DNA of 64,000 bases, taken from Trebouxia sp. TZW2008. Taxonomy: Eukaryota > Chlorophyta > Trebouxiophyceae > Trebouxiales > Trebouxiaceae. The DNA is taken from contig BDIU01000227.1 in the NCBI GenBank assembly GCA_002118135.1, forward strand, positions 1-64,000, read 5' to 3'. Of this stretch, positions 1 through 62,748 are shown piece after piece. Within the stretch, counting starts at the first letter, position 1. The number at the start of each line of letters is the position of its first letter. The notes below the pieces were generated by a model. It searched no databases. It was not told where the DNA came from and saw nothing but the letters and a program-made list of their open reading frames with translations. The translations under genes and the position numbers were made by a program.

Positions 1-67
1 AGCACTCGTTGTTGAGCAGCAGTTGTAGAATGGGATCCCTAGAGCCCTTGTGCTCTCTGGAAAACAG

Positions 68-3000
68 GAAGCGCTGAGCAGTCGTTTTGACTCATTGTCA
101 GCCAGCATCACTGCTGAAAAGTTTTGGGAGCCTAATGACAACATCGGCTTCAAGGTGAGCACTCGTTGTTGAGCAGCAGTTGTAGAATGGGATCCTGAAA
201 GGAATTGTGCTCTCTGGAACACAGGAAGCGCTGAACAGTCGTTTTGACTCATTATCAGCCAGCATCATTGCTGAAACCTTTTGAGAGCCTAATCACGACA
301 TTGGCTTCAAGGTGAGCACTCGTTGTTGAGCAGCAATTGTAGAATGGGATGCCTAGAGGCATTGTGACCCTTGCAAACAGGAAGCTGAACAGTCATGGGG
401 GCGTATTCTTGGCCAGTCTGACTCATAAAACTTTTGGGAGCCTAATGACAACATCGGCTTCAAGGTGAGCACCCGTTGACGAGCAGCAGTTGTAGAATGG
501 GGATCTTGTGAGGCATCGTGACCCTTGCAAATAACAAGTTGAACAGTTTTGGGCACTTATTCTTGGCCAGCATGATTGCTGAAAACAACTGGGAGCCTAA
601 TGACAACATTGGTTCCAAAGCGAGCAGTCTTTGTTGAGCAGCACTCATAAAATGGGATCACAACTCAACGGGATTTCAACTCGTTTGCTCAGGTATGCAA
701 CTGGTTGCAGTTTATGTCATGAGACGTCAGTGCACAGGGCATGGAAGACGCACTGTCACCCTGCATGGCACACTGCACTGCACAATGCTTAGCAAAGCAA
801 ACAGGGCATGTTGATTAGCTGCAGCCAGCTTCATTTGCTCAGCTTCATTTGCTCAGACGTTTGACTGTTTGCAGTTCACGTCATGGGACGTCAGTAGACA
901 GGCCATGTGACATGCACTGCCACCCTGCACGTCACATTGCATGACACACACAGTCTCTGAGCTGTTCTAGCTGTTTTAAGCTGTTACCCCGACTGTGTCA
1001 CAACACCCCTCAGCGCGTGCTGCCTCTTCTAGATGGCTGATGAGCCCATGCAAGAGTTTCAATAAGTTCTTGCCAGTAACCTCGCCATGAGATGAAAAAC
1101 ATGAAACCTGTAGCCCAAACAAGGTGCCCTGCAACAGTCACGCAATGGAGTGTGCTCAAGATGTCAACAGGCCATGTGATGACCTGCACGGCCACCTTGC
1201 AGGTTGACTGGAAGAGGCCATATATCAAAGGCATAGAGGATCCATTGAAGACAACCCTAGAAGCAACAGCCTTCAACAACCGCAAGCAATCGGGAGTCTT
1301 CACCACATGTAAGACTAACAAGCCTTTAGTTCATCCTCAAACATCTACCATTGTAAGCAATGATACTTTACCTAATGGAATAGATGTGAGACAGTAGCAG
1401 TAGCATGTTTCACTGGTTTTTGTATAGGTAGCAGATCAGGGTGTGTATGTCCTGGACTTCTGCTTGCTGACCTTGCTTAGTGCAAAGCCTTGTGTCTTGC
1501 ATTAACATCACGCCACGTGACCGAGTGAAGTAGTCTTTTGCATTGTGTTCATGTTTGACACTGCCTGTTGACTCCCTGTTGGGTTCTAAAGACATCAAAA
1601 TCAGTTGCTAGCTAGTTAAACAGCCAGCTGACTGGCTGCCTGCCTGCCTGCCTGCCTGCCTGCTTGCCTGCCTGCCTGCTTGCCTGCCTGGATGACTGAT
1701 TTGTGACATCTGAGCTTCTGCGGTACTGCCTCGGCTTACACAGCTGAGCTGAGTCAAGTGTCAACGCTCATTCGTTGAGCCTGAGTCTTGATGAAGTAAG
1801 CATTGCCTGTTTGCATGATACCTTGATGCGTCCAGTTTTCAGTGCTGTTGCGACTATTTGTCAGACTTTGCTTAGCAGTGCCAGCATTAGAACTGTGAGT
1901 GCAAAAGAAAACATTGTATTTGCTGTACTTTTGGGAAAAGAATACACATGGACATGACTCCACGTTCATGAGAAGGTCTGCCAAAAACTTATGCAAATTT
2001 TGCTGATGCATAGTCAGCACCATAGTCTGTAGCAGAAACCTCAAAAGGTGAAATGAACCATTCAGCCTCTTCAAAGCAAGCAAATCAAGTCCTGCTCACT
2101 GAGCCTCAAATAGTAAATCCAAAGCAAACTGACTATTGTAAAAGTCTTGACTTGTTTTTGCAGGCTCTCCCAGTGAAGAAGTGCCTTCCATCCGAGCGGG
2201 CAGAGCAGGAGTCAAACTGGGCTTTCACAAACAGTGCAGCGCCAATAGCAAAATTCTGTCAATTCTGGCTTGTCAACAATGGAAAAGGATTGAGACTAGG
2301 TTTGGACTGTTACTAAAGGCGCAGCGGCAACAGCAAAGCAGCGCAAAGGTGTTGAGACTGGGCTTGTTTGATGCCAATGACTGACACATGGCTTTGGCTC
2401 TAAGGCTTTTTGCAGGCTCTACAGGCAAAGAAGTGGCTCCCATCTAGGTTGACAGAGCAGGAGCCAAATTGGCCTTTCACCAAAAGCGCAGCCGCAACAG
2501 CAAAGCAAACTATAGCTTGTTAGCAATGAAGCAGGGTTGAGATTAGGCTTGTCTTTGCAGGCTCTCCAGGTGAACAAGCTGGGTAGACAGAGCAGGAGCC
2601 AAACTGGCCTTCTGTCAAAAGCGCAGCCGCAACAGCAAAGCAAAGTATGGCTTGGAAGTTGAGGAAGTGATCAAGAGTCATGAGCAGTAACACAAACTGA
2701 ATATTGAACTGTCCTGAGACTAGCCTTGTCTTTGCAGGTGCTCCAGGTGAAGAAGTAGCCCCCATCTGGGTTGACAGAGCAGGAGCCAAACTGGCCTTTC
2801 ACTAAAAGCGCAGCCGCAACAGCAAAGCAAACTACAGCTTGTTAGCAATTGAACTGTCCTGAGACTAAGCTTGTCTTTGCAGGCGCTCCAGGTGAAGAAG
2901 TGGCTCCCATCTGGGTAGACAGAGTCGGAGCCAAAATAGGCTTTCATGAGAAGCGCAGCCGCAACAGCAAAGCAAACTACGGCTTGGTGATTGAGGAAAT

Positions 3001-5847
3001 CACCACACGTGATGAGCAAGGGCAGATTGCGACCTCTGGGAGCAAAACTTTGCCATCAGGCGCTCAAGCTCCAGACGGCCCCCCTACTACGCTCTCGAAG
3101 AAGGGAAAAGACAGAGTGGCTTTCTTTCAAGCCAACATCACCAGGGATGCAACACACAACGAGAATGGCACTCCTATTGGGGCGCGGGATATGTTCACGG
3201 TGGGTGCACACTTTTTGACGGATGGCAAAACACATCATGATCATGTGCATGCTTTGCTGCTAATGCTGTCTGACCCTGTTTGGCTGACTGTTGAGTTCAT
3301 TCTCCTCACTTGTGTGCTTGTTGCTAATGTTGTCTGACCCTTTTTGACTGACGGCAAATCATCATGCTCATCACTTGTGTGCTTGCTGGTAAGGTTGTCT
3401 GACCCTTTGGACTGATGGCAAATCACATGATGATCATGATTGCAAATCACATCATGATCATCACTTACATGGATCAGGTTCTTTGACCCTGTATGATTGA
3501 CTACAAATCTCCTCATCAGCATCATGTGCATCCATGTGTGTAGGATCACAAAGGCAAACAGCAGCAATGATTTGCTTTACTCTAAAGCCTTTTGTGCTTA
3601 TGCAAAAACAGTCCTCAACAATGCAACCGTAAATCTACGAACTTTGAAAACTAGTTCATTACTGCCAGCACTTGACTGCAGTAGCTGACACAACAGCAGT
3701 TGAGAGTAAGAAGAGAAGTGCACTCTTGACCAGTGTTTGATGGTGCTGCTGCACTGCTCATGTGCTTGCATGCGATTGCTTGCTGTGCTATTTTCATCAG
3801 CAACTGAGCAGGGCATCCTCACCATGTGCAAAACAGCTACTATGACCTTAAGCCTGCATCAGTAGCTTTAGACACATGGTGATTGCATAGACCGCTTGAT
3901 GGAGAAAGCAGCAACCCCCCAAGTTGATGACGGTTTGGTTGAATTCTGCACAGTGGAAGGATGCGATTCTCCAGGCTGATCTTTGGTGGCCTCCTTGAGC
4001 AGAGATGATCATTCATTATTGTGTGAGAAGAAATTCAACATCATTATGCTCACAGGGTCATCTTGACGTCGTCTGTATGACCTCATGCTGGATCTCTAAG
4101 ACAGTAGAATCCAAGGATTGACTGGCTGGCTGACTGACAGATTGGCTGGCTGGGTGACTAATTGGCTGTTCGACTGACTGAGTAACAGGCTAATGACATG
4201 CTCACGGCTAGCTGGACTGACTGGCTGACCGACTGACTGACTGACTGACTGCGGGTGGAGCAGAGTCTGGGGCTAGGCATCATGACCTTCTTCAGCAAGC
4301 ATTGTGCCAATTTTGGCATTGTCTATATGACTTTGTCATGGAATTCTGAGACAGTGAAATCAATGGACTGACTAAACAACTGACTGACTGACTGCAGGTG
4401 GAGCAGAGTCTGGAGCTAGGTATCGTGGCCTTCCTCGACAAGCACTCTGCCAGTTTTGACATTGTCTGTGTGACTTTATAACGGGTCCTTGAGACAGTAA
4501 AATGAATGGACTGAACGACTCAATGATTGACTGAGTGACAGACTGACCGACTGCAGGTGGAGCAGAGTCTGGGGCTAGGCATCATGCCCTTCTTCAACAA
4601 GCACTCTGCCAGTTTCACACGCTTTAAGAAGATATTCGGTGACAAGCCATACATTCCTGGGGAGACCCGTAGCAAAAGTCCACCACCCGTTTACGTCTTG
4701 CATGCAAGGTCAGCTTCAAAATCTTGCAGTTGCCAAACTAGGCAACATCTTGCAGGCTCTGCTGTCGATAGCGATTGTATTATTGTAATATTCTGTTTTG
4801 CATGCAAGGTCAGCTTTACAGTCTTGCAGTTGCCAAACTGGGCACCATCTCGCAGGCTCTGCTGTTGGTTCTTGTGTAGTTGCAATGAACGCAGTGCCTC
4901 TGCACTCAGGCTTTGCTCCTCTTGTATCATGTCATTCCTGGCTGCCTCTACAGACAGAGGCTCCCTTATGACGCCCAATGGTGCAAACTTTTCTTTTCTT
5001 TTCTGTATCATTTCGCCTGGTGAGGATGCTACATGCTGTATATGCCATAAATTTGTTGTAGTCAAGTTAAAGGCCCGCCTCACCTCATGCTGGAGCATTG
5101 CTGAGCATATTATATAGACTGCTCAAGCCTGTTTGGCTGTCAACATGAAAATTGTCACCGCTCACCCTTGCCTTGGGCTGCTGACATGATGCTGCCTTTC
5201 TAGAAATCTTGAGCATCAGGTGGCATGTTGTATACACAACACACTCTTGCAGCTTGTTGCATTTGCTCGTCAAGGCCTTTTGACAGCACAGCACAGCACA
5301 GCACAGCACCGCACAGCACAGCACAGCACAGCATCCATGCATGCATGCAGTGCTTGAGGTACGTGCTTGACAAGCTGGGTGAATGCACCCAGCCCTCAAC
5401 ATGTGCAGTTAGAACCAGTCTCAGAAGCGTTTGAGAAGTTTTACTTGAGAAAAAGTGCTTTCCCCTGAGTGAAAGTGTGTGTGCAGATATGCGGGTGGCA
5501 TGGGAGACCTGGCTTCACATGATCTGCACTCTCTGGGGGGGCCCTGGTCTGTCAGGGGGTACCAGCTGGGCGAGCTCGCCTCAGCCAGGAGAGTATTGGA
5601 AACTGCTGCAGAAATACGACTGCCTGTGCCCAAAACCAACGCCCAGGCTTATGCGTTTGCTGAGTTCGGCACGGACTTGAACAGCTCCAAAGACGTGGTG
5701 GGCAACCCAACAGCATACTTCAGAAAACCAGGCTGTGGTGGCTCTGTCGGCATAGGATTCAAGGTGTTCAATGCCAGAACAGAGCTGGTACAAGACGCAA
5801 ACACGGGACGGCGGCATGTCTGGGTTCGTTTTGGTGAAAGGTTCTGA
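68..5847 (+). CDS. TOC75: TOC75 plastid outer-envelope import channel, C-terminal 340 residues (5' end outside window)
   Basis: Omp85-family beta-barrel that conducts preproteins across the outer chloroplast envelope. Exons: 68-154, 1203-1308, 2883-3199, 4557-4708, 5487-5847; phases 0,1,0,2 join without a break. Segments match the conserved Toc75 barrel: [11 protein letters not shown], then [12 protein letters not shown] and [11 protein letters not shown], then [40 protein letters not shown] and FFQANITRD, then the [13 protein letters not shown] block. The last exon has [14 protein letters not shown], the (L)GG..SVRGY motif of Omp85 proteins, and [12 protein letters not shown]; it ends WVRFGERF, an aromatic-terminated last strand. 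The POTRA domains and the N-terminal barrel must lie upstream of base 1. Three of the five exons have decayed tandem copies in the flanking introns (described separately). The intact copy was chosen by open frame and phase. ERV1 follows on the same strand 700 bp downstream. Confidence 0.93.
156..660 (+). repeat. Tandem copies of TOC75 exon 68-154 with its donor site
   Basis: The unit (exon end, donor, about 40 bp of intron) recurs at about 153-157 bp spacing. Copies end at 311, 464 and 620 after the intact exon end at 154. The second copy has an in-frame TGA. The third has diverged and lost bases. In the fourth the donor reads GC instead of GT. They are therefore decayed duplicates inside the following intron, not coding exons. 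Confidence 0.85.
661..1202 (+). other. TOC75 intron remainder
   Basis: Intronic sequence between the exon-copy array and the next TOC75 exon. It carries a loose direct repeat (a segment around 690-790 recurs around 855-960, with the shared words GTCATG, GACGTCAGT and CAGGCCATG or CAGGGCATG). A third partial copy lies around 1150-1200 next to the acceptor of the 1203 exon. Nothing else recognisable was seen. Confidence 0.5.
1632..1692. repeat. (CCTG)n tetranucleotide microsatellite
   Basis: About 13 near-perfect CCTG units with occasional CTTG variants, inside the intron between TOC75 exons 1203-1308 and 2883-3199. Confidence 0.9.
2164..2882 (+). repeat. Four degenerate copies of the TOC75 exon that starts at 2883
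   Basis: Copies begin at 2164, 2416, 2561 and 2738, each directly after an AG preceded by pyrimidine-rich sequence, as at the real exon. Each repeats the beginning of the exon ([11 protein letters not shown]... to KRSRNSK-like sequence, roughly 90-120 bases) and then diverges. The 2416 copy has a TAG soon after GKEVAPI. The 2561 copy has a deletion followed by TAG. The 2738 copy is closest to the real exon but has TAA where the real exon has GAG. The 2164 copy stays open but is the most diverged. A further short fragment lies near 2316-2345. Confidence 0.9.
3200..3520. repeat. Degenerate intron repeat, about 75 bp period
   Basis: Four or five imperfect units built around TTGTCTGACCCT, a GACTGATGGCAAATCA-like word and ATCATGATCATCAC, directly after the TOC75 exon that ends at 3199. 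No coding signal. Confidence 0.65.
4113..4556 (+). repeat. Two decayed copies of the TOC75 exon at 4557 separated by GACT-rich spacer
   Basis: Copies of the exon start (VEQSLGLGI) begin at 4254 and 4396, ahead of the real exon at 4557. The first copy has a destroyed acceptor (GCGG instead of GCAG). The second has an intact acceptor but loses the exon frame after about 55 bases. The spacers are runs of GACT/GGCT tetranucleotides (4113-4250, 4375-4395, 4515-4550) that end in the polypyrimidine-AG. Confidence 0.85.
4697..4895 (+). repeat. Tandem duplication of a TOC75 splice donor region
   Basis: About 98 bp starting just before the donor at 4709 (GCATGCAAGGTCAGCTT) and ending at GCAGGCTCTGCTGT is repeated starting near 4797. 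The intron therefore carries a second donor-like site at about 4808. Confidence 0.8.
4936..5015 (-). repeat. Dispersed repeat family, copy A
   Basis: Shares the core of three other copies in this window (22369-22492, 40240-40352, 56228-56346). Read on the minus strand: a purine run AGAAAAGAAAAG, then a PLG-encoding word, then AGCCTCTGT and AGAGGCAGC. Located in the last TOC75 intron. It is shorter and more diverged than copies C and D. Confidence 0.65.
5280..5350. repeat. (CACAG)n and (GCAT)n microsatellites
   Basis: About ten CACAG units followed by CATGCATGCATG, within the last TOC75 intron. Confidence 0.85.
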
Positions 5848-6547
5848 GTGGGAGTTCAATGAGTCTTTAGTAAAATCTCATCCACTTGCTGTCCAGGGTC
5901 GGTTGCTTTCTGCTGGGCACTGGTTTTGCATTCCTTTCATGCTGCCATGTCGTGTTGCAAGCACTTGCCCTCATCAGTGGACTGCAGCAGCAAGTGGATC
6001 AGCCCAATGAATCTGTCTGCAATCAGCTCAAAGTCTCTGTGTGATTGCAGCGGATGCGCAGCTGCATGTCTAGTTGCGCACATGTGTTATTTCGTTTGTG
6101 TTTCTGGTGTTGCAGCTCAGATTGTATGCAGTGCGCTGTTGCTGTCAATTTGGCTCTCTTCTGAGCTCGCAATGTGGCTTGAGTTTACAAGGCATGAACA
6201 AAGAGTCGAGGGGTGAAAGCTTTGTAGTGACCCATCCCTTGCCTTTCATATTATTCTCTCTCTCTCTTGATGACCAATGACCAATGATGACACATATCAG
6301 GCACATATCTGTGTTGCCCCCTAATTAAATATGAAGCGTCGCACAATGGCACGAACACCAGGCTGCAAGAAATGATGCCACCATCGGAGTCGAACGCGCA
6401 TCTGTGGCAAGTCCTGAACCCAGAGATACCTGTGTTGCAGTCACTCACGTGCGGAAAATTGAAGTTGTACCTTCTGCAGAATCGTAGCCTCGACGCAGAC
6501 AGCGCATACGTCAAACATTGCATGATCAGACAGTACCTGCCGACTGC
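5848..6547. other. Intergenic, TOC75 to ERV1 (tandem)
   Basis: TOC75 3' flank and ERV1 promoter/5' UTR. The only local feature seen is a short CT run with repeated ATGACCAATG words near 6250-6290. No gene is supported. Confidence 0.5.
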
Positions 6548-11245: not shown

Positions 11246-12751
<1,506 letters not shown>

Positions 12752-15301: not shown

Positions 15302-18300
15302 ATGAGCTCAACTGACCGTCACACGGTATCGTATGACGCTGTTAGGTGTGCTGAGGGGCATCAAGGCAGGTGTCTAGGCGCCCTGCTGGGTTCTTTTTCG
15401 GGGGACGCTTCAGGTAATGCATCCCATCACCAAACAAGCGTCTATGTGCTGGGTAAGTACCCAGTCGACGCTTACTACGCAAAAAGTTTAGGCTGCCACT
15501 GTTCCAGTCAAGCTTGGAAAGTATTCATGCAAGTTGTTGCAAAATCAGGAGCACCTGTCGAGGGCTGGTCTTGGGAGCACATTGCCCACGAACAAAAGCG
15601 CTTCCAGCATATGGCGAGCGGGCGTTACACTGATGACACACAGTTGACACTTGCGCTAGCTAAGTCCCTGGTAAGATCCTCTTGGTGAGTGAAGCTGCAA
15701 CTGCAAAGATAGAGATAGGGAATGACATGATGCCCATGCTCACAATTGCATCAGGTCTTTTGCAATCAGATGTTGCTCAGGGCATCAAGTCTGTTGCAAT
15801 CACATGTTGCTCAGGCAAATGCTGCTGACACAGTCCCCAAGTCTCAAATTTGTAAAAGTTAGAGGTGTTGCTGTGCATATGCAGGTAAGCATGGGTGCCT
15901 GTGATGCAGCTGCAGCTTCTAATGCCTATGTTGAGGCGTTTGACAGCAGCAGGTTGGCGCCATCTGCATAAAGCAACCACATGGCATGCAGTATCAAAGT
16001 GCTGTGATCAGTACGCACTCAATTTAGACTGCATAAACTAAGTAGCCTCCTGTAGCACATGAGCCATAAAGATACTAAACAGGGCAAGAACAAAGAATGA
16101 CAAGGGGCATGGGTTGTACATTGTTGCATTGTTGCATGACGCTCAAGACAAGCCTGCCTGGCGAGATAAGACTTGTGACACGCGCTCAGCAGTATATGCT
16201 AGAACATATCATTTGTTGTTATTGTTATTATTATGCAGGGGTTATGGAGGCTCAGCGCAAAAGACGTTTGCACTGCTGAAGGAAGGGAAGACAGACTACA
16301 AGCAAAGTGGCAGGCTTGGCTTTCCAGAGGGATCCTTTGCCAATGGCGGTGCTATGCGCATTGCTCCTGTGGGCTTAGCCTACAGGTCAGGCAGTGATGA
16401 AATGCTGAATTTGCATGAATCAGCTGCAGGGGAAAAGTGCACGAGCAACGTCTTCAAATCCCAAACGCACCAGCATTGCTCCTGTGGGCTTGGCCTACAG
16501 GTGAGGCATTGAGGAATTGCAAAATTTGCTCAAGTCAAGTGCAGGGACAAAAGCATGCACAATGTCATTGATGCCCAAATGCACCAGCGTCGCTCCTGTG
16601 GGCTTGGCCTACAGGTGAGGCAGTGATGACATGCTGCATTTGCATGAGTCAGCTGCAGGGGAAATTGCACGGGCAACATCATTGATGCCCAGATGCCTCA
16701 GCATCGCTCCTGTGGGCTTGACCTGCAGGTGAGGCAGTGATGCATTGCAGAATTTGCTTGAATAAACTGCAGAAATAAAAGCATGGGCACCATCGTTGAC
16801 ACCCAAATTCACCAGCATTGCTCCTGTGGGCTTGGCTTATAGGTCAGGCAGTGATGGATTGCAGAATTTGCTCAAGTCAAGTGCAAGGACAGAAGCATGT
16901 GCAATGTCATTGATGCCCAAATGCACCAGCATCGCTCCTGTGGGCTTGGCCTATAGGTCTGGCAGTGATGAAATGCTGGATTTGCATGAGTCAGCTGCAG
17001 GGGAAATTGCACGGGCAACATCATTGACACCCAAATGCACCAGCACTGCTCCTGTGGGCCTAGCCTACAGGTGAGGGATGAGTGCTGCAAATGCCACGCT
17101 TGCACGAATCACTTGCAGGAAAAAGCATAAATGGACAGGGTCGTGCATGTCCAAACGTATCAGCATTGTGTAGGGCTTGAACAACAGCGTGCAAATTCAG
17201 CCAGAGTGTGTTGTCTTGCCTCAGAGTTGCTGACACATGTCATTCAGGTCATGTGCAGCACCGATGCATTGTCAGCAACAAAGCTTCAAGTGGAAGTCAG
17301 CCCAGCTTTGCGACAGGTTATGTCCTGTACATCATGTCATGACATGACAACAAGCGCCATGAAGTGATTGTGTCAAATACTAGGTCTGAACTTGGCTGGC
17401 GAGTAATAGGTAAGTATCTGCCTCGTTGCCTCAGCATGGACATGAGTGAAACTGCACGCAGATGGCTGTGCTGCAGGCATGCCGGTCCACAGCTTCTGCA
17501 CCAATCTATGCAATATGCTTAAATGTCAATAGACAAACACGCAATGTCTTTGGTGAAGCAAAACGTGAACATCTGCAGGCGCGCCAGCCCAGAGGTACCC
17601 CACAAGGCTGTAGAAGATGCTTTGCTGTGCAGCCATGTTCATCCAGTAGGCATAAAAGTCGCCTACATCCAAGCAATTGCTGTTGCTGCCTTCTGCACAT
17701 GCGCTAGAAGTGTAAGCATCAAATTGCATGAAACAACATGTGAACGGCTTTGGAGAATGCTCGAATGCATGTGCATCAAAATGCGAGAAAGATTATGCTG
17801 ATGGCTGTGCTGCAGGCATGCCAGCCCAGAGGTGCTCCGTAAGGCTGTTGAGGATGCTTTGCTGTGCAGCCATGTTCACCCAGAAGGCATAGAGGGCGCC
17901 TACATCCAGGCAGCTGCTGTGGCTGCCCTCTGCACATGCGCTGGCCCAGCATCGCAAGGTACTTGTGCTGCTTCCACCCCCAGGCAGCTGCTGTGGCTGC
18001 CCTCTGTGCATGCGCTGGCCCAGCATCGCAAGGTACTTGTGCTGCTTCCACCCCCAGGCAGCTGCTGTGGCTGCCCTCTGTGCATGCGCTGGCCCAGCAT
18101 CTCAAGGTACTTGTGCTGCTTCCACCCCCAGGCAGCTGCTGTGGCTGCCCTCTGTGCATGCGCTGGCCCAGCATCGCAAGGTACTTGTGCTGCTTCCACA
18201 CCCAGGCAGCTGCTGTGGCTGCCCTCTGTGCATGCGCAAGCCCAGCATAAAAAAGAATTGGTTGATTGAGTTGATTGACAGCTGTGCCTGCGCAAATGCG

Positions 18301-20764
18301 AGGTCATCACAAGGAGTACAGCAGTACTTGTGCAGACAATGATGGGGCCAGACAGAAGGCATTGTGAGATCACTTGACTCTCACGCGTAGGACCTGACAC
18401 AAGCAGAGCAACTGAGCAGATTGGACTCTGCAATCAGTTGTATGTTGTTGTACACATGCCAGAATGTGTTTCTGCTGACAGGTGATGGGTCTGAGACGGG
18501 CGCAATGCAGCTGTTGAGAAATTTGCAGGCTGCAGCTACCCTTGAAGCCATGCAAGCCAAGCTGCAGGTCTTGCTAGACAGCTTGCCAGCAGCTCCTGAG
18601 GTCAACTCTGAAGGCTGCATTGATGGCAATAACTGGGAGGGCAATGCACAGTCTGTAGCCTGGCAGTATGATTGCAAGGTGAGACGTATCATCATCATCA
18701 CCATCGCTATCATCTATGCACCGTGTACTGTGTCTCTGTGGCCAACACATATTAGACCCGCACAGAAGCAATGACCTGCCTCCGAAAATTCTGTCCAAAG
18801 CCATTTTGTGCCAGCATGAGGTTCAAGTCAGCTGCAAGCAGGTGTGAACATTGCGACCCCATTGTGACATGGCAAACTGACCCAATGACAAACCCCCAGC
18901 TGCACATGGATTGTCAGCAGATGATTAGGCATGCTTGCAAACTCAACCTGAGACTGGAGCCTGCGTTGACAGCAACAACTGAGAGGGCACTGTTAGTAGC
19001 CTGGCAGTATGACTGCAAGATGAGACATAAGTCAGCTGCAAGCAGTTGTGAACATTCCTGCACACCATTGTAGCAATGTGAGCCGGCTACAATTGGATCA
19101 TCACCAGTTTCACATGCGTGCTTGCAAGTTGAGCCTGACACTACCCCTGCGTTTGGTCTGTCCTGAGCGCTGTTTGTGAAAACCAGCATGCTTAGTAGCT
19201 GACACGCAGATCAAAAGACTCTGCAGTTGAGTCTGACTCAGCTGAGCATCACAGAGTGTGCTCTGAGCCGCCATTCCGTCCATCTTAGATAACAGCAGAC
19301 ACTCTTGTGTGATCTACACACTAGCATTGTGGAACGCTCTGAGCTCTGTTGCGCTTACTGCTTGGCTTTGTTACACGAGTCCAGGTGCTGCAGCAAGCAG
19401 GGTCAGAGGGGCTTCATCTCAAAGCTACGGATGCAGTGGTGTATGATTCAGGCATCTGCAGCGCATGAGCAGTGCTTTGACAGTGTGGGAAAGTGAGGTA
19501 GATTGTCAAGACATCCTGTTGGGATCTAGGTGCTGCAGCAAGCAGGGGCGGAGGGTTTTCGAGCTCAAGCCATGCATGCAGTGGTGTGAGCCTTGTAGGC
19601 TCTGTGCAAGCATTGGGAAGATCCAAAAGCAGTCACCATTTGGGCACTTGGCTGTGCATGAGCAGTGCTTTGAGAGTGCAAAACAGTAAGATAGTGTATG
19701 AAAGCATCCGGCTGAACGCAGGTACTGCAGCAAGCAGGGGTGGAAGGCTTTCAGATTCAAGCCATGGATGCAGTGGTATGTGCTCTTTGGGCGCTGTGCA
19801 GGCACTGGCAAGATCCAAGAGCAGCCACCATTGCTGCTGTACGAGGTGCGCTTGCTCGGTCCATCAAATAGTGCATGCTTCGTCTGCAGCTCAGGTATGA
19901 CCTGATTGAATCCTGACGAAGCTGTTGACACTGAAGCTGCAGAGGGCAATCGGGCAGCTTGTTTGCACTCACATTTTCAATTTGCCCTGCTGATCATCAA
20001 AGAAGCAATGTCCAAATTAAGCATCCAGTTGTATACATATCATAACGCCCTTGCTTGGTCATTCTTGACGACAAGCTGGTTTCTGCATCTCTGACAAGAG
20101 TTGTTGCACATGTTGAGCCCTTGAAAGCAGTAATGCAAAGCGCTATTGACTTCGTCTATGTGGGCAGGTCTTCAGCACTTGGGCAGCTTCGTTTAATGTA
20201 ACTGTGGCCAGCCAGAGCGCTTGAGATATTTTGGAAACTAAGCTGCTTGATAACGTGACACATACTTGATCAAGTGTGATCCTGCCCAAATGACTGATCA
20301 TGCATTAGTGGTTTGCGCTTGATGCTGAAAGGCAGGCAATCTCCCTGCAGGTGGTGGTGACTCTGATACAATTGCAGCGATGACAGGCGCTCTCAGTGGA
20401 GCACTACACGGCGCTTCTTGGATTCCACAGCCATGGTGGGTGAAGATTTGCATGCATCTTGAGCTACATAATACACTATGCGATATGCAACACGAAATCA
20501 ATACAACATACAAGCCAACATATAACACATTGTACAAGGTGACATGATAATACCATGCGTTGCATCACCAACTACAATGCTGCATTTGCACTTGCAGTCA
20601 AAGCAGCATTTGACTCCCTGATGCGACCTACCATGCTGTTTCGATCCAATCTTGCTTTGCAAGGGATGCTGCTTTACAGGTTTGACAAGCTAGAGAATGA
20701 AGCTGATGGGCGGGACACATGTGTGCGATTAGCTGTTCTCTTGTCTGAGCTTGACCTCAAGTGA
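15302..20764 (+). CDS. ADP-ribosylglycohydrolase (ARH/DraG family), 360 aa
   Basis: Predicted to hydrolyse ADP-ribose linked to protein or small molecules at a binuclear Mg site. Exons 15302-15413, 15549-15670, 15885-15952, 16239-16385, 17816-17958, 18482-18678, 19722-19845, 20351-20435, 20680-20764; all phases join (1083 nt). Motifs in order: CLGALLGSFSGDASGAPVEG, YTDDTQLTLALAKSL (first metal motif TDDT), SSRGYGGSA across a splice, GAMRIAPVGLAYR, HVHPEGIEGAYIQAAAVAAL, MDAVVCALWAL, GGGDSDTIAAMTGALSGALHG (second metal motif GDSDT) and WFDKLENEADGRD. Compact coding exons sit in very long introns packed with copies of exons 4, 5, 6 and 7 (separate entries). Which ARH subtype it is cannot be told from sequence alone. 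Confidence 0.9.
16386..17100 (+). repeat. 114-bp tandem array derived from the end of ARH exon 4
   Basis: The block encoding IAPVGLAYR plus the donor and following intron is repeated. The word GCTCCTGTGGGCTT starts at 16363 (real exon), 16478, 16592, 16706, 16820, 16934 and, with its last T changed to C, 17048; that is one 115-bp step and five 114-bp steps. Because 114 is a multiple of three, the copies stay in phase with each other, and parts of the array (16796-17074) read open as a repeated IAPVGLAYR protein. Alternate units resemble each other more (two spacer types: one with TTTGCATGAGTCAGCTGCAG, one with TTTGCTCAAGTCAAGTGCA). Confidence 0.92.
17462..17712 (+). repeat. Upstream duplicate(s) of ARH exon 5, one fully open
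   Basis: After a GCAG acceptor at about 17578 there is a full-length, stop-free copy of exon 5 (encoding ASPEV, KAVEDALLCSHVHP, AYIQA, AVAA and CTCA) that runs into a GTAAGC donor near 17713. It enters in the same phase as the real exon 5. A shorter third fragment (GATGGCTGTGCTGCAGGCATGCC) is at 17461-17483. The real exon was taken as 17816-17958 because its end phase fits exon 6. Use of the 17578 copy as an alternative exon cannot be excluded. Confidence 0.8.
17905..18250 (+). repeat. Perfectly regular 74-bp array from ARH exon 5/intron junction, five units
   Basis: CAGCTGCTGT occurs at 17911, 17985, 18059, 18133 and 18207, exactly 74 bp apart. Each unit holds 49 bases of exon (AAVAALC), the GGTACTTGTG donor and a 25-base pyrimidine-rich run ending CCCAG. 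Every unit therefore looks like a micro-exon flanked by both splice sites. Units are almost identical, implying recent expansion. Confidence 0.95.
18826..19075 (+). repeat. Decayed copies of ARH exon 6 end and intron segment
   Basis: About 18937-19025 repeats the 3' part of exon 6 (bases about 18600-18685, including the word TAGCCTGGCAGTATGA followed by TGCAAG) with many changes. A neighbouring intron word TCAGCTGCAAGCAG is duplicated at about 18828 and 19030. Confidence 0.8.
19380..19720 (+). repeat. Two decayed copies of ARH exon 7
   Basis: GTGCTGCAGCAAGCAGGG begins near 19384 and 19530; the intact exon begins at 19722 (GTACTGCAGCAAGCAGGG). Both upstream copies follow an AG and continue with diverged exon sequence including ATGCAGTGGT, then drift out of frame. 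Confidence 0.85.
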
Positions 20765-39899: not shown

Positions 39900-40239
39900 A
39901 ATGTTTGTGCTGCAACTTTGCCACACACTGCTGTCTAAGATCTGGGGTGTAGGCTGTGATACTGTGATGTGAGAGGGCAAAGAGGCATTTTGTACATTTT
40001 TTTGTCTAGTCTGCGATGCAAAGCGCACATAGCTTTCTGATAGCTGCCGCTTCAGACCCCTACAAGGCATTGCAGCTTAGGTGTGGCAACCAAAGAGTGC
40101 CATGATGGTATGTATGCTAAACCTACAATTAATAATACAGGGCATGCTTGGCAAAACAGAGCATGCATGGCTTCAGAATGACGCACTGTGTTGTGTGCTG
40201 CTTAGGTGTGGCAAGCCATGCATGGTAGGATAGAGCATG

Positions 40240-40352
40240 CAAGGAAAGAAGAAGAAAAGAAAAGTCTACGCCGTTAGGCGCCATAACAGGAGCCTCTGTC
40301 TCAAGAGGCAGCCCGGGATTGCTGCCTTCAAAGCAACAACCTACAGAATAGA
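40240..40352 (+). repeat. Dispersed repeat family, copy C
   Basis: AGAAAAGAAAAG, CTACGCCGTTAGGC, ATAACAGGAGCCTCTGT, AGAGGCAGCCCGGGATT and AAGCAACAACCTACAG. Best conserved with copy D (56228-56346). Confidence 0.8.
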
Positions 40353-40539
40353 GCATGCATGGCTTTGCAACAGTGCTAACAATCAGCTTTGTTCTTTGCT
40401 GTTCAGGTGTGGCTGCCAAAGGGTGTGGCGAGTCAGACGCGTGTGAACAAGGGGCAGAGCATGCCTCGCAAGCTGCGGCATGTAGCTGGTCTCAGAGGCG
40501 CTCCTGGCTCACAAATGACAGTGCTGAGCTTGGAGCTAG

Positions 40540-41790: not shown

Positions 41791-42328
41791 GTAAGTTGCC
41801 TCATTTCTTAGCGGTTTGGTGTTAAACTTGTTTTATAATTACATGCTTGCTAGAGCCTTGTCTCAAGCACTTTGACATTACAGCTTATGCTGATCTTGTG
41901 TACATTATCATGCCTTCAAGGCATGTTAATGATGCTAATGATTGCAATTGGTCGCGCTGCAGCTGTGATTCTGCAGTCACGACTTGGCAATAATCGGCAG
42001 GCTGCGACCATTTATGGTCGCCTTCCACTCGTTTCAAATGGTGTTAAACTACAGCTGCTGTCACGAGGTGTGTTGCGTCAAATGATATCAACGTTGAGTC
42101 GGCAGCATTTTGAGTCAGCAGGCACTTTGTTCTGGTGGTGGTGCTATGAACTTTCAAGTGCTGGGCATGCCCCAGAATGCTTGGGAAGGGTGCAGGTACT
42201 ATCAGGCATGCTTGTGTTCTCAGCAAACTATTATGCTATGGACTTGCTACATGTGCCACAGAATGCTTGTGGAGAAAGCAGGTGATGCTCAGACATGCCT
42301 GAGTCTCACTATAGTGCGGCACACCAAG

Positions 42329-42617
42329 TGTAGCAGTGTGAGGAATTAGCACCTCGCCATCTAGCTAGCAATGGTTTTTATCCAATATCTCATTCTGTAA
42401 CAATGGTTTCGAGAGTTCCCTCTCACGCGATTCGAACCCTTCCGCACGGGATTTCGCTGCATTTGCCTCTTGAGGACGCCTTTGCAGGGGGCCGCACCTG
42501 ACGCTATTCGCAGCAGAGTTGTTAAGCTGGCTCTATACTTAGGTGGGGGGAAATGTAGCAGTGTGAGGAATTAGCACCTCGCCATCTGGCTAGCAATCCC
42601 ATACGCGCTCTGTAACA
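42329..42617 (+). mobile_element. TRIM-like miniature LTR retrotransposon, 289 bp
   Basis: Two direct terminal repeats begin TGTAGCAGTGTGAGGAATTA and end CTGTAACA (42329-42402 and 42552-42617), i.e. TG...CA ends. One base inside the 5' repeat is TGGTTTCGAGAGTTCC, in the place of a tRNA primer-binding site (starts TGG). Directly before the 3' repeat is AGGTGGGGGGAAA, a polypurine tract. The internal part (about 150 bp) has no reading frame of note. Flanks CCAAG and AAAAG are only a weak 5-bp target duplication. Orientation + is set by PBS and PPT. Confidence 0.75.
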
Positions 42618-55524: not shown

Positions 55525-56466
55525 GTTTGCAATCAGTCAAAAACATTTCATGTTGACTATGAGTGCGTTATACCATTGGGTTGTCGCTGACCAACACAAC
55601 AATGAATAATTTGACTACTGCTATTTGTGCCGTTAGCATATGACAGATAGGAACCTTTAGCATGCTTTGACATAGATGAAGACTTTTCAGTCACCACTGA
55701 TGTTGTCACCATAGCTTCAAGATCATTTCACATTCTGAATGCGCTTGCGGAAATTTTGGGCAGAATTGCTTGCTGTTTAGACTGCAACTGCAGCCATGTC
55801 AATCAAACTTCAAGCTCAAGGACCGTGTTAAGTATGCTGCTGAATAAGATTGTGCCTGCCATTGTGTACACATGTTGCAAATCATCACTTCTTGCAGTGT
55901 GCTCATTGTTGGCAGCTTTGTGTTGCAGCCAGTTGTTGCTCATGTGTAAGCATCTTGACACACACACAAGCAATTATGGCTGGGGATCTTGACCTGCATC
56001 TTGTTCAATCAAACAATTTACAAGGTGGTCATGCTCTTGTAACCCCCTCATCGTTGAATGGGCTTCAAACAATACATACTCATGCACATCTAGCAAGTCT
56101 AAGTAAACTACAGTGGAGCTTGATACACAGCACAGCTTCAGCTTACTTCGCAGGATACTATGCAACAACATTGCTTGATCCTTGATGCACTGAGCCCATG
56201 GCTGATCACAGATTCAACGCTGGATTCTGAGCAAACCAGAAAAGAAAAGACTACGCTGTTAGGCATCATGACAGGAGCCTCTGTGGTTAGAGGCAGCCCA
56301 GAATTTCTGCTCAAAAGCAACAACTAACAGAAATTGACCTACGGGGGTCCAGCCCACCAAAGCACTATGCAACGCTGTACATGACAGAGTGTTCATACGC
56401 CCTACAACTCTGTGGCAGCATCAGCATCTGTCTCTTCTCATGTTATCATATGGCATGTACACCCTG
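55525..56466. other. Intergenic between convergent GPX and SET genes
   Basis: 942 bp. Holds dispersed repeat copy D; no gene supported. Confidence 0.5.
56228..56346 (+). repeat. Dispersed repeat family, copy D
   Basis: CAGAAAAGAAAAG, CTACGCTGTTAGGCATCATG, ACAGGAGCCTCTGT, AGAGGCAGCCCAGAATTTCTG, AAAGCAACAACTAACAG and TTGACCTACGG, in the same order as copies B and C. Confidence 0.8.
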
Positions 56467-59400
56467 TCAAGCGTCAGCCAGCTGTTGTGGATCGTATTGC
56501 CAAAGGCATGACCTCAGAAGCTGCTTTTTGCCAATCCTGAACTGCAGAGCCAGAATGTGCCGCTCATCTTGTGATTCCTCATCCCGCATGCTTTGGAGCC
56601 TGGCTATGTCTGCCTCCAATGTGGTGGGTTTTGAGCTGAGGATGTGCTGACAAAACTGATACAGAGCCTGCATGCACAAGCAAGGTTGATTACTGACTGC
56701 TAGCACAGGCATTTTTTGTTTGGAACAAACGCAATCGTGTCATCAAGAAGACACTTCAGGCAGGTGCATGTGGTCCTGCACATATGGGCAATCTGTTGAC
56801 AATCTAAACACTCGTCATCTGCTGTGTCTTGCATGCTGTGTCAATCTGGGACCACACAGCATGCATGGACTAGGACAGTCAGCCGCAACAGTGAAAGAAG
56901 CAGCCAAAGCAGAATGTGTTTGGCACGGTGCAGTCTACACAGCGAACTACATCCATGCAATGAAGCAATGTCAAGTTTGCGCGCATTGCAGTCCACTGCA
57001 GCAATAAAAGCCATGTCAAGACATACTGACCTGCAAGACTCGCTTCTTGGTCTGAGTCTGGGGCGAGTGTGGTGCAGTTTGGGGCACATTGTGAGACTCC
57101 ACATTCCCTTTAAAGCTCAAAGGTGATAGATGCTGAAGAAGGTTCTGCAGAAGCTGGACAGGATTGATGCCTGTAAAGGATGACTCTTTCTGATGGCCGA
57201 GCAGCTGGAAAAGGGCTTCAGTAGTACTTGCCGCCCAGCCCTGTCTTGTGAGCTGAGCCTGCAGTGACCGTTCAGGCATTCATTGGTGTCATACACTGTG
57301 TTGAGACATGGCACCAACCAGCAATACAGTGCTGCGCAGAAAAGGCTCCGACAGAGCTTGGTGCCTGACTGTGTTTGTGCGCTGTGCCTGCAGCAAGCAT
57401 TCAGGCAGCCATTGTTTTCAGAGTGGTGAGACCAGTCACCAAACAGCAATGCGTTATTGCACATAGAAGAGCTTCAATAGTGCTTGAAGCCCAGCCCTGT
57501 CTTGTGAGCTGAGCCTGTGACAAGTAATCAGGCACTCGTTGATGTCATATCCAGTGTTCAGACCAGTCACCAACCAGCAATACAGTACTGCACGAAAAAA
57601 GGGCGTCAGTAGGGCTTGGTGCACAGCCTGTTCTTTTGAGCTGAGCCTGCAGCATCCAATCAGGCACTCAGTGATTGTGCAGAGTGCTGAGACTAGTCAC
57701 CAAACAGCAAGTCAATCCTGCATGGAAAAGGGCGTCAGTAGTGCTTGCTGCCCAGCCCTGTCTTGTGAGCTGAGCCTGCAGCATTCAATCAGGCACTCAG
57801 TGATTGTGCAGAGTGCTGAGACTAGTCACAAAACAGCAACTCAATCCTGCATGGAAAAGGGCTTCAATGGTGCTTGGTCCCCAGCCTGGTCTTATGAGCT
57901 GAGGCTGCAGCATCCAATAAGGCACTCAATGATCGTTCTGAGTATGAGACCAGTCAGCAAACAGCAGTATGTGACTGCTTGGGCAAAAGTCTCAACAGTG
58001 CTTGGTTTCCAGCCCTGTCCTGTGAGTTGAGCCTGCAGCGAACATCAAGGCACTCATTGGTTTCGTACACAGTGTCCCGACCAATCACCAACAGTTAGTA
58101 CAGTACTGCACAGAAAAAGGCGTCAGTAGTGCTTGGTGCACAGTCTGTTCTTGTGAGCTGAGCCTGCAGCATCCAGTACAGCACTCAATGATCGTTCTGA
58201 ATACTGAGACCAGGCAGCAAACAGCAGCATGTGACTGCTTGGAAGTTTCAACAGTGCTTGGTGCCCAGCACTGTCTTGTGAGACGAGCCTGCAGCAGCTC
58301 TCAAGGCACTGTTGACTTCAGGACGTTTAGACCAGTCAACAGACAGCCATACCGCATGACACATCACTTTGACGATCTTAATGCAAAGCTGAGCTTTGAA
58401 CTTCAATGAACGATGGCAATCAGGCAGACTTGAGCCCCTTGACTCACCACCGAGAAAAGCGCTTGCAACACAACAAAGTGTCTACAAGTGAGCAGTGTAT
58501 GCAATCAGGTTGTGGCAACAGCATCACAGCATCAGCAGATCCTGTGCATGCATCACTTAGTCTATGTTGTAAGTCAAGCAAGGAACGGCGAGGGGTGTGG
58601 AAAGGTACCTGTTGCAGTGTCTGGAGCCAAGTGGCATCTCTCTGTACAGCCTCCAGTCTTTTTGGCTCAACCTCAAAGTTCTGTGTGACATATGACAGTA
58701 GGTCAGCCTTGTAGGCGTCATGTTTGTTGTCAGTGTCCACAAAGCCGTAGTACTGCAGGAAATCTTCATTGGGCTTGGGTGCATAGCTGAATGTGATCTG
58801 CATGGAAGGCATGAACCCATTCAGACAAGCATCCACAAATTCATCAGCTGGGCTGTTGTCAGTCCGTGCTAGGCACAATGTTGTGACTGGGTGGCTTCAG
58901 GGCAAGCAGGCAGAGCGAACAAGTTCTCACGTGTTTGTAAAGGACACAAGCTTGATTGTGCATGCATTGGATGCCTAAAACCCGACCGCTGAAGTCTCCA
59001 TATATGCACACTGTTACAGTGCAAATGAACCTGAAGTCTCCACACATGCACACTGTTATAGGGCAGATGGATTACAAGTCTCCACATGTGCACACGCTTA
59101 TAGGGCAAATGGACAAATGTGTATGCACTTGATGCCTGAAATAAAACGGCTGAAGGAGTCACACATGCACACTGTTACAGGACAAAAGGTCACTGTGCAT
59201 GCATTTGATGCTTGCAATGACAAGGCTAAAGACATTGCACACGCACACTATTACTGGACAGAAAATTGACTGTGCATGTACAGCTGTCTGAGTCTCATAG
59301 GGCTGAAGTCACCAAACATGCACTCTATCACAGGACATTGCTGAATGTGCATGAAGCGAATGAGCAAGATGCTAAAGGACAGACCTCTTGACCAGCTGGC

Positions 59401-59503
59401 ACTTCATTCATGATGACTGCCTCCAGCCTGTCACCCACCCAAGTGCGCTGTACCTTGCTCTGCAGTCAGTGCATTGCACATCAGATCCTTGCAATCATAC
59501 GAT

Positions 59504-59588
<85 letters not shown>

Positions 59589-59594
59589 CAGCAT

Positions 59595-59644
<50 letters not shown>

Positions 59645-59654
59645 GCTTCAGCTT

Positions 59655-59744
<90 letters not shown>

Positions 59745-62700
59745 AAGCAAAAGCAACAGCAACAGCAACAGCAACAGCTTCAGGTTCAGGTTCAGCTCCA
59801 GCTTCTAGAACCTGGCCCCAGTGTTGACCATGCTTCAGCAGGAAGACCTCCGGATGGAAGAGATCACGATCACCAACGCAGAGCAGTTGGGGTTGGTGAA
59901 GTTCACAACCGGCAGCAGAGCCTGTTGAAGCACTCACCAAAGCGGAATGAAGTGTGGCTGATGAGGTCCAACAATGGCAATTGGGCAGTGACACTCAACA
60001 AGGCAAAGATGTTGAATTTTCTGTCAGATGAGGCCGTCAACAGAAACTAGATGAATTGACTCACTGAAGCAGAGGAATTGTGGTTGATGGAATCCACCAC
60101 GGGCAGCAGGGCAGCAGTGGTCACTCCCTCCTGCTGGAACAGCCCCCTCATCAGTACAGCCACCACACTCATCCCCGCCACAAATTGGCAGCATGCCGCA
60201 ACCTGCAATGCAATACCATTATTGCTGCCACCATGACGAAGCGGCAGCATGCCAGAACTTGCCATGCAGCAGCATCATTGTTGACAAGCTTTTGATATGG
60301 GACAAAAGTAACAGCCTCCGCATCAGCACAGCCACCACGCTCATCCTCAACACAAACTAGCAGCAGGCCATGGCCCACGATGCAGCACCAGCAACTGCAT
60401 GTCATGTTTTTGCTTTTGCCCTGAAATGACGTGTGTGTGCGGTTGCAAGTTGCAGCCTTACAACGTCCAACTGAAGTGCAGCAATGTCCTTGTACAGTGA
60501 ACTCTCTTTGTAAACAACTGCTTTGGTTACCAAGAAAGTTGTCCTTACATGAAATTGTCTCAGAGGGACCACTGTAGTCAGAATGCAGTGCTTGGCTCCC
60601 AGCTGCATTGTCCTTACACCGAGAATGTCCTTTTACTGAGTGTCCTTCTATCAAGAAGTTACTGTATGGCGCTGAGTCTTGAAAGACTTGCATGGACTGG
60701 CTGTGCCTCTTTTACACAGCAACAGGTGCACATCAGCAAGCAGCATTGTGCTGATTGATCATGGCTTTGGGCATGCTGTGCTTGACACAGATTGATTGCC
60801 CAGATGTGCTGCAGAATGAACTTGGTCCAATGCATATTGACAATTGAGCTCCTTGTCGCGATATGAAGCACTCTCACCTCCTGGCTGCTCTGCCACTGAC
60901 TGAGTGATGATGACGTGAACAGCAGAGCTCCTAGCAACCCAAAGGAGCCCACAATGATGGGAGCAAGGGCCTCTGCAAGCACGCAAGTCAGCAATGTTAC
61001 TAAAGAGAACGGTCACCACTGAAGTCTACAGGAGTAAGGGCGTCAATGGCAGCAGCTTGCAGGTAAGACTCACAGGTACATATGTTGTGGCCCATGGGTA
61101 GCATAACATGTATGCCCATTTTTCAGGGGAGCAAATTTGCAGCAGGGTTGTGCTGACATAGACAAAGCTGCAAGGCATGGAAAACGATGCAAGCTGAAAG
61201 CTGCAAGCCTAGTTGTACTGGTTGCAGAAATGCCCAGGTTGCAAACATCCCTTTTCTAAGCAACAGCAATCTCAGCGCATGACTTACTGAAGTGCAATAT
61301 GACAGCAGTAGCAACTGATTGTGCATTGCGCTCGACAAACAGCTTGCACACACCGTCCACACCCTGTTGACATACACACAACAGTGCACAAGTGCCAGAG
61401 CCTACCCTGAACAATCTGTGTCCAGTGCTTAGGGATTGCAACAGGTCTGCTAGTTGCAACATTCACAGCCCATATCAGCTCGGCTAGGCTGATGTTGAGC
61501 TGACGCACAACTGTTGTCCTCTGCAGCTTGTTGTAGCTTGCTTGCACTGTGCTGGTTTGCTTCTTGACCTACAAGCATTCAACTGTCGTCATCTTCCTTT
61601 TCAATGACAGACCTTACTAATCTAATACTTTACACTGTACTTATGTTACAATTTATAGAGTATCTAGTGCAGATTACTTCTGACGTGGCACTACCTCAAA
61701 ATAAATTAAACAAAAAGAGCCTATCTGGTGCTTGACAGTCCTGAAGACTGCTTGCTTCTGTGCCTTTACACTGCGCTTTGGTTCAGTGCAACGATGCTGG
61801 TCAGTCAAGAGCAATTCTGGTGTGCAGAGCTGTATCTGACAGCCAGCAGACAGTCTACATGAGATTGCAGCGAACAAAAGGCTTTTTATTCTCACTGAGC
61901 ACCTGTACTACTAAGTCTTACAATGCTGTGATTGTGGCCATCCCAAAAGCGTCAGTCAAATGTTGCCACCGACACAAAGCTTGACCTGTGCAATCACAGA
62001 GTGCTCAACAATATGGCGACAACAAACCGATTTCTGTGATTTCACGATTGTGAGGTCAAGCTTTACATGCTGGCATCATATTGCAGCCGACCGTGATGAG
62101 GACTTCTTGCTCAATTGCTGTTGTGTTTGTTTGCAGCCGCTGCAGCTCTGCAGTTGACCAATGCATCAGTGCGGAAAAGGTCTTGGGCAGAGACTGTATC
62201 CAGACGTGCCATGGCGACAACGACCCGCGCTTCTTCTCCCTCAGCAGTACCAGAGCAATTTGCACACTTCTGCAGCAGATGAGAGCAAGATTGGACCATT
62301 GTCCCGTTGCACAAATGTTGCTCACGACCACTGCCTCACCCATCCAGTGCTCTCCAGGTCTGCTCTGGGACAAGGTCTGGCATGGGTGAAGGCTGTCCAG
62401 CAGCAACTGACAGAGCCATCTTGCTGGGCATGCTTATCATCACGGTACGAGCTGGCATATGCCATCTAGTCGCGACGCCCCGCACCGGTAAAGTTGCGTC
62501 GGCAGCAAGGTAAGGGCACTGGATGTCTGCCTTTTCCTCGGCCCACCTCAAGACCTGCTGCACGTCGACGCTGTGCCCGTCGTCGTTGCATTTGTCTTGC
62601 CAAGCGTTGCTGTCACCTGTTTCAGGTAAACATCACATGTTAAGACGTGCAGTGCAGAGCCCTGCGCACGTCAGACATTCTCACTTGCCGGTACCGTGAA

Positions 62701-62748
62701 CGAACGTGAACAAGCATCAAGGCGTCCCCAACACCACAGATATACCAT
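56467..62748 (-). CDS. SET-domain protein lysine methyltransferase, Rubisco-LSMT type, about 511 aa
   Basis: Predicted protein-lysine methyltransferase with a split SET domain and a C-terminal substrate-binding domain; the substrate is not known. Minus-strand exons: 62748-62685 (tentative start), 62616-62340, 62269-62092, 61568-61406, 60972-60878, 60130-60065, 59459-59385, 58797-58609, 57258-57031, 56667-56467; phases agree. Motifs: LRWAEEKAD, LPVRGVATRWHMPARTVMIS (GRGV-like start of SET), ALVLLREKKRGSLSPWHVWI then SLPKTF, LIWAVNVATSRPVAIP (SRaf-like), LLPVVDSINHNSSAS (the D..NH motif), VPAGQE then ITFSYAPKPNEDFLQYYGFV (YGF signature). The C-terminal helices read QFCQHILSSKPTTLEADIAR. Six-kb span; introns hold copies of two exons and a CAG tract. 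Confidence 0.88.
57262..58340 (-). repeat. About 130-bp tandem array derived from SET-gene exon 57258-57031
   Basis: The acceptor plus the first ~55 bases of the exon (AQLTRQGWAASTTEALF) recur in the upstream intron. GAGCCTG(CAG) words lie near 57502, 57632, 57764, 57896, 58022, 58152 and 58282, plus a more diverged unit near 57385. Most units keep the AG acceptor (CTGCAG on the minus strand) and end in a GCAGGATTGA-like or ACTGTATTG-like intron stretch. Confidence 0.9.
58960..59340. repeat. Degenerate minisatellite in SET-gene intron
   Basis: Units of about 45-60 bp with GAAGTCTCCA, CATGCACACTGTTA and (A/T)AGGGCA or CAGGACA. At least seven units lie between exons 59459-59385 and 58797-58609. 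Confidence 0.8.
59502..59795. repeat. (CAG)n / (CAACAG)n tract, about 290 bp
   Basis: About 28 CAG units followed by about 30 CAACAG units with three short CAGCTTCAG-type interruptions. It lies in the SET-gene intron between exons 60130-60065 and 59459-59385. On the transcribed minus strand it is CTG/CTGTTG. The long open frames it creates in all six frames are repeat artefacts. Confidence 0.97.
59860..59935 (-). repeat. Decayed copy of SET-gene exon 60130-60065
   Basis: On the minus strand GCTCTGCTGCCGGTTGTGAA, then CTTCACCAACCCCAACTGC and TCTGCGTTGGTG, parallels the real exon (LLPVVDSINHNSSAS) but changes the key Asp and His codons (reads LLPVVNFTNPNCSA) and lacks the donor. Lies downstream in the following intron. 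Confidence 0.8.
60493..60666. mobile_element. Tc1/mariner-like MITE, copy 2 (complete, 174 bp)
   Basis: Begins TACAGTGAACTCTCTTTGTA and ends with the reverse complement of TACAGTAACTTCTTGATAGA, so the termini are imperfect inverted repeats with TA at both edges (expected TA target duplication). Internal sub-repeats TGTCCTTACA and GAATGTCC. Lies in the SET-gene intron between exons 60972-60878 and 60130-60065. Confidence 0.75.

Follow-up and report, generated by a model that had tools for sequence, protein, structure and literature searches.

Beside real exons, the introns of this genome recurrently contain head-to-tail copies of the exon edge together with its splice site, and we consider it rather probable that they stem from recurrent short local tandem duplication across exon/intron borders, the copies decaying in the adjoining intron and part of them perhaps being affected by gene conversion. 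The window, i.e. the whole stretch of DNA analysed, covers the initial 64 kb of contig C219, which is 119 kb long and belongs to an assembly of 68.5 Mb and 527 contigs. The presence of TOC75 and CFAP206, together with the matches of a DIM1 protein, makes it likely that the genome is that of a green alga. Among the best 120 of 5919 DIM1 matches, the named full-length ones came mostly from green algae and plants (Nannochloris 71%, Coccomyxa 68-69%). The same 120 matches were headed by E-value by oddly named Glossina and Artemisia entries, and metagenome proteins reached 88-98% among them.

Tandem Repeats Finder returned 25 rows on the window, and a BLAST comparison of the window with itself gave 60 local direct repeats (<=2.5 kb) and 0 local inverted ones. 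A search of the window against Rfam gave 0 matches. The initial annotation had placed exon-edge copies in five genes, encoding TOC75, an ADP-ribosylglycohydrolase, RBM39, CFAP206 and a SET protein. In the first four, the intron beside a homology-supported exon does hold from one to about six head-to-tail copies of the edge and splice site; in the SET gene the array is real and its relation to an exon edge could not be confirmed. The array periods that had been given (74, 114, about 130, about 145, about 157 and about 200 bp) came out the same on re-measurement. TOC75 was identified by its match to PDB 7vcf_B (E 3.5e-51), and its locus is organised as follows:

1-659, + strand: 157-bp array of about 4.2 units adjoining TOC75, each unit with an exon-3'-edge-like stretch ending AAG/GTGAGC
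2125-2882, + strand: three to four decayed acceptor-edge copies, period about 145, whose source is the TOC75 exon 2883-3199 downstream
2883-3199, + strand: real TOC75 exon, parent of the upstream copies
3208-3436, + strand: intron-only tandem repeat, period 65/129, adjoining a TOC75 donor (contrast case)
4215-4556, + strand: two acceptor-edge copies, period 143, whose source is the TOC75 exon 4557-4708
4557-4708, + strand: real TOC75 exon, its acceptor side copied upstream and its donor side downstream
4795-4865, + strand: donor-edge copy of exon 4557-4708, spacing 100, 90% identity

The contig start falls within the first of these arrays; a putative parent exon would be situated beyond the end of the contig. 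The ADP-ribosylglycohydrolase gene (PF03747) shows mostly donor-side copying, and in its 74-bp array each unit comprises the 3' edge of the exon and the GT donor, followed by some 25 bp of intron:

16239-16385, + strand: real ADP-ribosylglycohydrolase exon
16386-17119, + strand: five to six donor-edge copies, period 114-115, 3' of exon 16239-16385
17573-17705, + strand: decayed copy of the exon part 17810-17942, 86% identity, spacing 237
17906-18248, + strand: 74-bp donor-edge array, 4.6 units, 97% matches
18954-19029, + strand: decayed donor-edge copy of the exon end 18608-18688, 78% identity, spacing 346

RBM39 was recognised by the Pfam family RBM39linker (E 3.6e-21), CFAP206 by PDB 9e5c_4z (E 1e-18) and the SET gene by a match to the Rubisco-LSMT substrate-binding domain (E 7.1e-7). 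An exon edge was sought in the unit of the 129-bp array of the SET gene and none was confirmed, and a Pfam search over the stretch of this array gave no match. The features of the three loci are:

25663-25885, - strand: real RBM39 linker exon, predicted bounds
25955-26135, - strand: one acceptor-edge copy of the RBM39 exon within the upstream intron, 84% identity, spacing 191
37843-38772, + strand: four copies of the CFAP206 exon's acceptor edge, matching it at 83-88% across its first 60 bp
38773-39037, + strand: real CFAP206 exon
57206-58352, - strand: intronic 129-bp array of the Rubisco-LSMT-like (SET) gene

For the quantitative analysis, 18 stretches of 2.2 to 10 kb each were taken from other contigs by a content-blind choice, and a further sample comprised the remainder of C219 and 12 loci around WD40 exons. 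The set of 318,175 bases used below (318 kb) contains all of C219, 10 WD40-exon loci and 17 stretches; L033 and L036, which adjoin other loci, and L007, 2.2 kb made up of short repeats, were left out. Exons were predicted from sequence by a self-trained exon finder, which had learned the signals CAG/GT for donors and TGCAG/G for acceptors and yielded 279 exons with a score of at least 4 in the 318,175 bases; its coding fraction of about 15% suggests that exons were missed. Local pairs were retained at 45 bits or more with partners at most 1 kb apart. Edge copies were counted at the junctions of exons scoring at least 8 (n=318), a copy being accepted when it covered 20 bp or more of the edge.

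Exon-edge copies are also present in the stretches of other contigs, where reading of the sequence recovered further arrays, of which six genes are given here as examples:

ARP3: exon-edge arrays at an acceptor (period 116) and a donor (period 56)
peroxidase-like gene: arrays at both edges of one exon, periods 125 and 197
VPS41: exon-edge arrays at an acceptor (period 135) and a donor (period 167)
phosphoglucomutase-like gene: exon-edge array, period 163
VASt-domain gene: exon-edge array, period 133
WD-repeat-like gene: exon-edge array, period 121, no Pfam match

The same reading met several arrays of uncertain kind and some stretches with no array at all. Ten protein pieces were compared with Pfam: RBM39linker, actin (5.9e-13), Vps41 (1.5e-36), VASt (2.1e-13) and the Rubisco-LSMT domain passed the cut-offs, peroxidase (5.1e-6) and phosphoglucomutase (3e-6) fell slightly below, and 3 of the 10 pieces had no match. 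The VPS41 piece gave 0 matches against solved structures.

In the 318 kb set, 257 local pairs were direct and 4 inverted, and the direct pairs covered 13% of the bases. A local edge copy (at most 1 kb away) was found at 50 of the 318 predicted junctions, namely at 30 of 157 acceptors and 20 of 161 donors, and the partner lay on the intron side of the same junction in 45 of the 50. Three of these 45 pairs, in which the partner fell for more than 60% within predicted exons, were left out of the set of 42 copies considered below. The splice dinucleotide was retained as AG in 23 of 26 acceptor copies and as GT or GC in 14 of 16 donor copies. Both sides of exons are thus affected, as the initial annotation had stated, and its picture of copies of many ages and of a recurrent process is borne out in the window and in the stretches of other contigs. 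The insertion of reverse-transcribed pre-mRNA, which it had listed among possible causes, finds no support, given the head-to-tail orientation of 257 of the 261 local pairs, the partners adjoining their source in 45 of 50 cases and the units that contain intron sequence. An assembly artefact would have in its favour that C219 starts within an array, so that the assembly broke at one array; the copies differ by about 5-30% in a coding-aware pattern, which misassembly would not produce. We regard these two origins as highly improbable.

The local pairs were grouped into 114 clusters, 63 of which rest on one pair. Copying at borders had been expected to exceed the rate of intron-internal repeats, and it does: 45 of the 114 clusters touched an exon edge for 19.5 expected under random placement (about 2.3-fold). 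Clusters with one side fully exonic numbered 16 for 9.6 expected, and those without exon contact 53 for 84.9 expected. Cluster density was higher in gene bodies (4.68 vs 2.76 per 10 kb), and when gene bodies alone were considered 34 edge clusters were counted for 17.1 expected. A pair with one constrained member remains recognisable longer, and pairs were therefore dated by their own clock. At matched age, with t up to 0.10, 12 of 33 clusters were edge clusters, where chance would give 4.6 (P 0.0005); restricted to gene bodies, the count was 9 of 14 for 3.9 expected (P 0.0045). Slower divergence of exon-edge pairs as the sole source of the excess was ruled out by this age matching. The window alone displays a weak excess: 6 of its 22 local-repeat clusters span a confident predicted junction for 2.75 expected (P 0.046); with a fuller exon set the expectation rises to 5.45, and 6 is then unremarkable (P 0.48) while the 9 counted by reading give P 0.07. 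Since 53 of the 114 clusters have no contact with a predicted exon, the underlying process is local duplication in general, within which borders are favoured; the systematic amplification of exon borders that had been proposed is too strong as a mechanism. Matches elsewhere in the 318 kb sample were seen for only 3 of the 114 clusters, and the copies are therefore local. A "conveyor", in which the nearest copy would always be the most similar, was unsupported: among 9 arrays with at least 3 copies, 6 trend in this direction and 3 in the opposite one.

We then compared the copies with the real exons by codon position. In the plain class, where the intron flank is homologous or reached by the similarity, mismatches at positions 1, 2 and 3 amounted to 79/754, 74/761 and 160/758, and in copies clipped at the splice site to 52/486, 43/485 and 126/483. 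A ratio of 1:1:2 is the expectation for a freely drifting copy of an exon that itself changes at third positions alone. Homologous intron flanks differ by 0.22, and in these cases the difference at codon positions 1 and 2 is 0.089 and 0.106; the flanks, which are free on both sides, thus diverge at roughly double the rate of a single lineage. Many copies contain stops and frameshifts, in a count in which one record (L011, acceptor, oriented position 4120) was taken on the wrong strand, as it was in the flank-reach and spacer counts below; the codon-position and nearest-copy counts are corrected. By the codon ratio of about 1:1:2, the copies drift neutrally while the real exon is held by selection.

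The codon data also bear on the proposal that the copies are alternative, e.g. mutually exclusive, exons kept by selection. The retention of the splice dinucleotide in most copies would agree with it, as would some open frames with mostly third-position changes (e.g. at 80597 of C219) and a slight third-position excess in the clipped copies, where third positions changed by 0.26, somewhat more than twice the change at positions 1-2 (0.20). The latter figures hint that some clipped copies may have been coding for part of their life. Against selected alternative exons stand the overall ratio of about 1:1:2, the stops and frameshifts in many copies and the fact that the copies are partial exons, and we find this origin improbable. 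The codon ratio, the stops and the frameshifts rule out that the copies, taken together, are under coding constraint.

Roughly one copy in three stops at the splice motif and has an unrelated flank, a property absent from the initial annotation. Among the 42 edge copies, 16 (one of them wrongly stranded) reach at most 15 bp into the intron, and in 14 of these 16 the flanks are no more alike than those of unrelated loci; the flanks are related in 25 of the 26 copies with longer reach. Taking the nearest copy for each junction (n=46), the intron flank was homologous in 24 and not in 22, the 16 short-reach copies all being among the 22. On the acceptor side, similarity starts within 15 bp upstream of the acceptor in 16 of 32 cases and inside the exon in 2 of 32, and on the donor side it ends between -15 and +30 in 10 of 20. 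Sharp-ended and spaced copies also occur in pairs labelled non-coding (22 of 30 single pairs). By reading, several of the sharp-ended non-coding pairs look like edges of exons missed by the finder, and one is a dispersed repeat.

Could tandem duplication at random positions, with slower decay of the constrained exon copy, explain everything, clipped ends included, if our ages or exon bounds were too rough? The 24 of 46 nearest copies with homologous intron flanks, decaying at the expected double rate, agree with this explanation. We simulated tandem duplications with one-sided decay at a low and a high indel rate. The ends falling at the splice motif numbered 14/155 (low) and 17/156 (high) at t 0.06, 10/156 and 15/151 at t 0.10, 19/148 and 28/122 at t 0.15, and 41/128 and 27/79 at t 0.20. 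The last values (32-34%) also favour this explanation, whereas the age derived from codon positions 1-2 is about 0.1, where the simulation gives 6-10% clipped ends. Plain tandem duplication alone is consequently a poor fit for the clipped copies, and the edge excess that remains at matched age also speaks against it; we hold it to be doubtful as a full explanation. Decay of the intron flank as the source of clipped ends was ruled out by the simulation at the measured age, and not at t 0.20.

The clipped ends could instead point to copying limited by the splice site, in which a repair or template-switch patch begins or ends at the splice motif, so that exon ends are inserted and the flank is left uncopied. 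Such copying would accommodate the acceptor-side starts just upstream of the acceptor and the unrelated flanks of 14 of the 16 short-reach copies. Real sites were also compared with decoy splice-like sites, an imperfect control, as the decoys include the copies' own sites: 29 of 61 similarity starts near real acceptors lay between -15 and 0, and 76 of 348 near decoy acceptors, in support of copying limited at the acceptor, while 10 of 46 similarity ends near real donors lay between 0 and 15, and 40 of 211 near decoy donors, with no excess at real sites. The lack of a difference at donors also favours random tandem duplication. The spacing and exon reach of the clipped copies, which resemble those of the plain tandem class, count against a splice-limited patch, and we know of no machinery for it; we judge it unlikely. 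The stronger form, in which the ends of exons, cut off right at the splice motif, are copied into the adjoining intron again and again across this genome, is less probable because the donor decoy control speaks against it, and we would call it quite unlikely.

Our preferred explanation, recurrent local tandem duplication with part of the copies perhaps converted, is as follows. Stretches of about 60-250 bp straddling an exon/intron border are copied head-to-tail into the adjoining intron, by a cause that probably acts on DNA (replication slippage or break repair), and the copies decay there without constraint. Duplication of a border would do no harm as long as splicing kept to the original site, presumably ignoring the copies. 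The clipped copies may be old duplicates, the exon part of which was refreshed by gene conversion from the real exon; similarity would therefore survive solely where the real copy is held by selection. Conversion is favoured because similarity stops about where constraint would, and because spacing and exon reach resemble those of the plain class. Homogenisation of the clipped copies by the constrained exon is nevertheless a guess, offered with less confidence than the rest. A mosaic pattern of identity, which would have pointed to conversion, was looked for in the copies and not found. Nor could the spacer that separates a clipped copy from its exon be clearly traced to one of the flanks: P <0.05 was obtained in 4 of 32 comparisons, one of them on the wrongly stranded record, for about 1.6 expected.

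If the process is genome-wide, the introns of this lineage would be partly built from the edges of their own exons; the growth of introns could then be read and dated in each gene, and many competing splice sites would be available as a natural collection. A neutral copy beside its constrained original provides an internal clock needing no outgroup, through the comparison of codon positions 1-2 with position 3 and with the intron flank. The copies stopping at the splice motif raise the sharp question of conversion versus splice-limited copying; were copying aware of splice sites, introns would grow as a fossil record of the edges of their own exons.

Several known systems resemble what we observe. 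Gao and Lynch are said to have described, in 2009, internal gene duplication, i.e. tandem genomic duplication across exon-intron boundaries; the likeness lies in a short head-to-tail duplication crossing the border, and, on our analysis, the common class of copies appears to work in the same way. Intronic minisatellites share the form of the multi-copy arrays (periods 56-200), but a functional exon edge is part of the algal units, and single pairs make up 63 of the 114 clusters. Tandem exon duplication and mutually exclusive exons likewise place exon-like sequence in an intron next to its source exon, while the algal copies are partial exons and decay neutrally. The copies are seldom whole exons: similarity stops inside the exon in most of the 54 best records, and extends to both ends (within 15 bp) in few. 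In the 318 kb set, a copy of at least 80% identity in mostly non-exonic DNA within 1 kb exists for 2946 of 37695 exonic bases (7.8%); PMC9013439 puts the copied exonic share at about 2% for human, 0.08% for fly and 0.06% for worm, by a method and for a target that differ from ours. In the literature as far as it was accessible, we found neither neutral copies of exon edges reported throughout a genome nor copies reported to stop at the splice motif. Introners and mobile introns also make introns grow through copying, but the algal copies are local, 3 of 114 clusters matching elsewhere in 318 kb. Finally, in the potato RdRp gene a short head-to-tail duplication across an intron-exon boundary made a new intron, according to PMC4974935, whereas the algal copies sit in the adjoining intron, often several together and decaying, with about a third of them ending at the splice motif.

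Besides the exon-edge copies, several other features were located in the window and in L024 and L007, two stretches sampled from other contigs of the same genome:

Window 4934-5005, 22360-22495, 40237-40348 and 56230-56355, both orientations: dispersed repeat, from self-BLAST of the window
Window 42326-42372 and 42551-42597: 47-bp direct repeat pair, 96% alike
Window 59505-59778: (CAGCAA)n run, 45.7 units with 96% matches, from Tandem Repeats Finder
L024 5998-7806: open frame of 602 aa
L007 1-2195: 22-48-bp repeats filling the contig end, for example TACCCCGAATCTTTTCCCGGATAC

The style of the L007 repeats is unlike that of the other sampled sequence. At the start of the window's own contig, Tandem Repeats Finder showed the 157-bp array on the TOC75 side (window 1-659) to be already under way, and the assembly therefore breaks at that array. 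The glutamine frame of the (CAGCAA)n run is open.

The four copies of the dispersed repeat share 72-82% identity in the self-BLAST. On reading, the L024 frame looks like a LINE-type reverse transcriptase; a search of this stretch for a local direct repeat family found none at the settings used. The 47-bp pair belongs to a dispersed family, its 30-base core having 97 matches in the genome (46 forward and 51 reverse, with at most 3 mismatches). Counting through the match list gives seven same-strand pairs spaced by 225-246 bp, an arrangement resembling a tiny element with a terminal repeat at each end.
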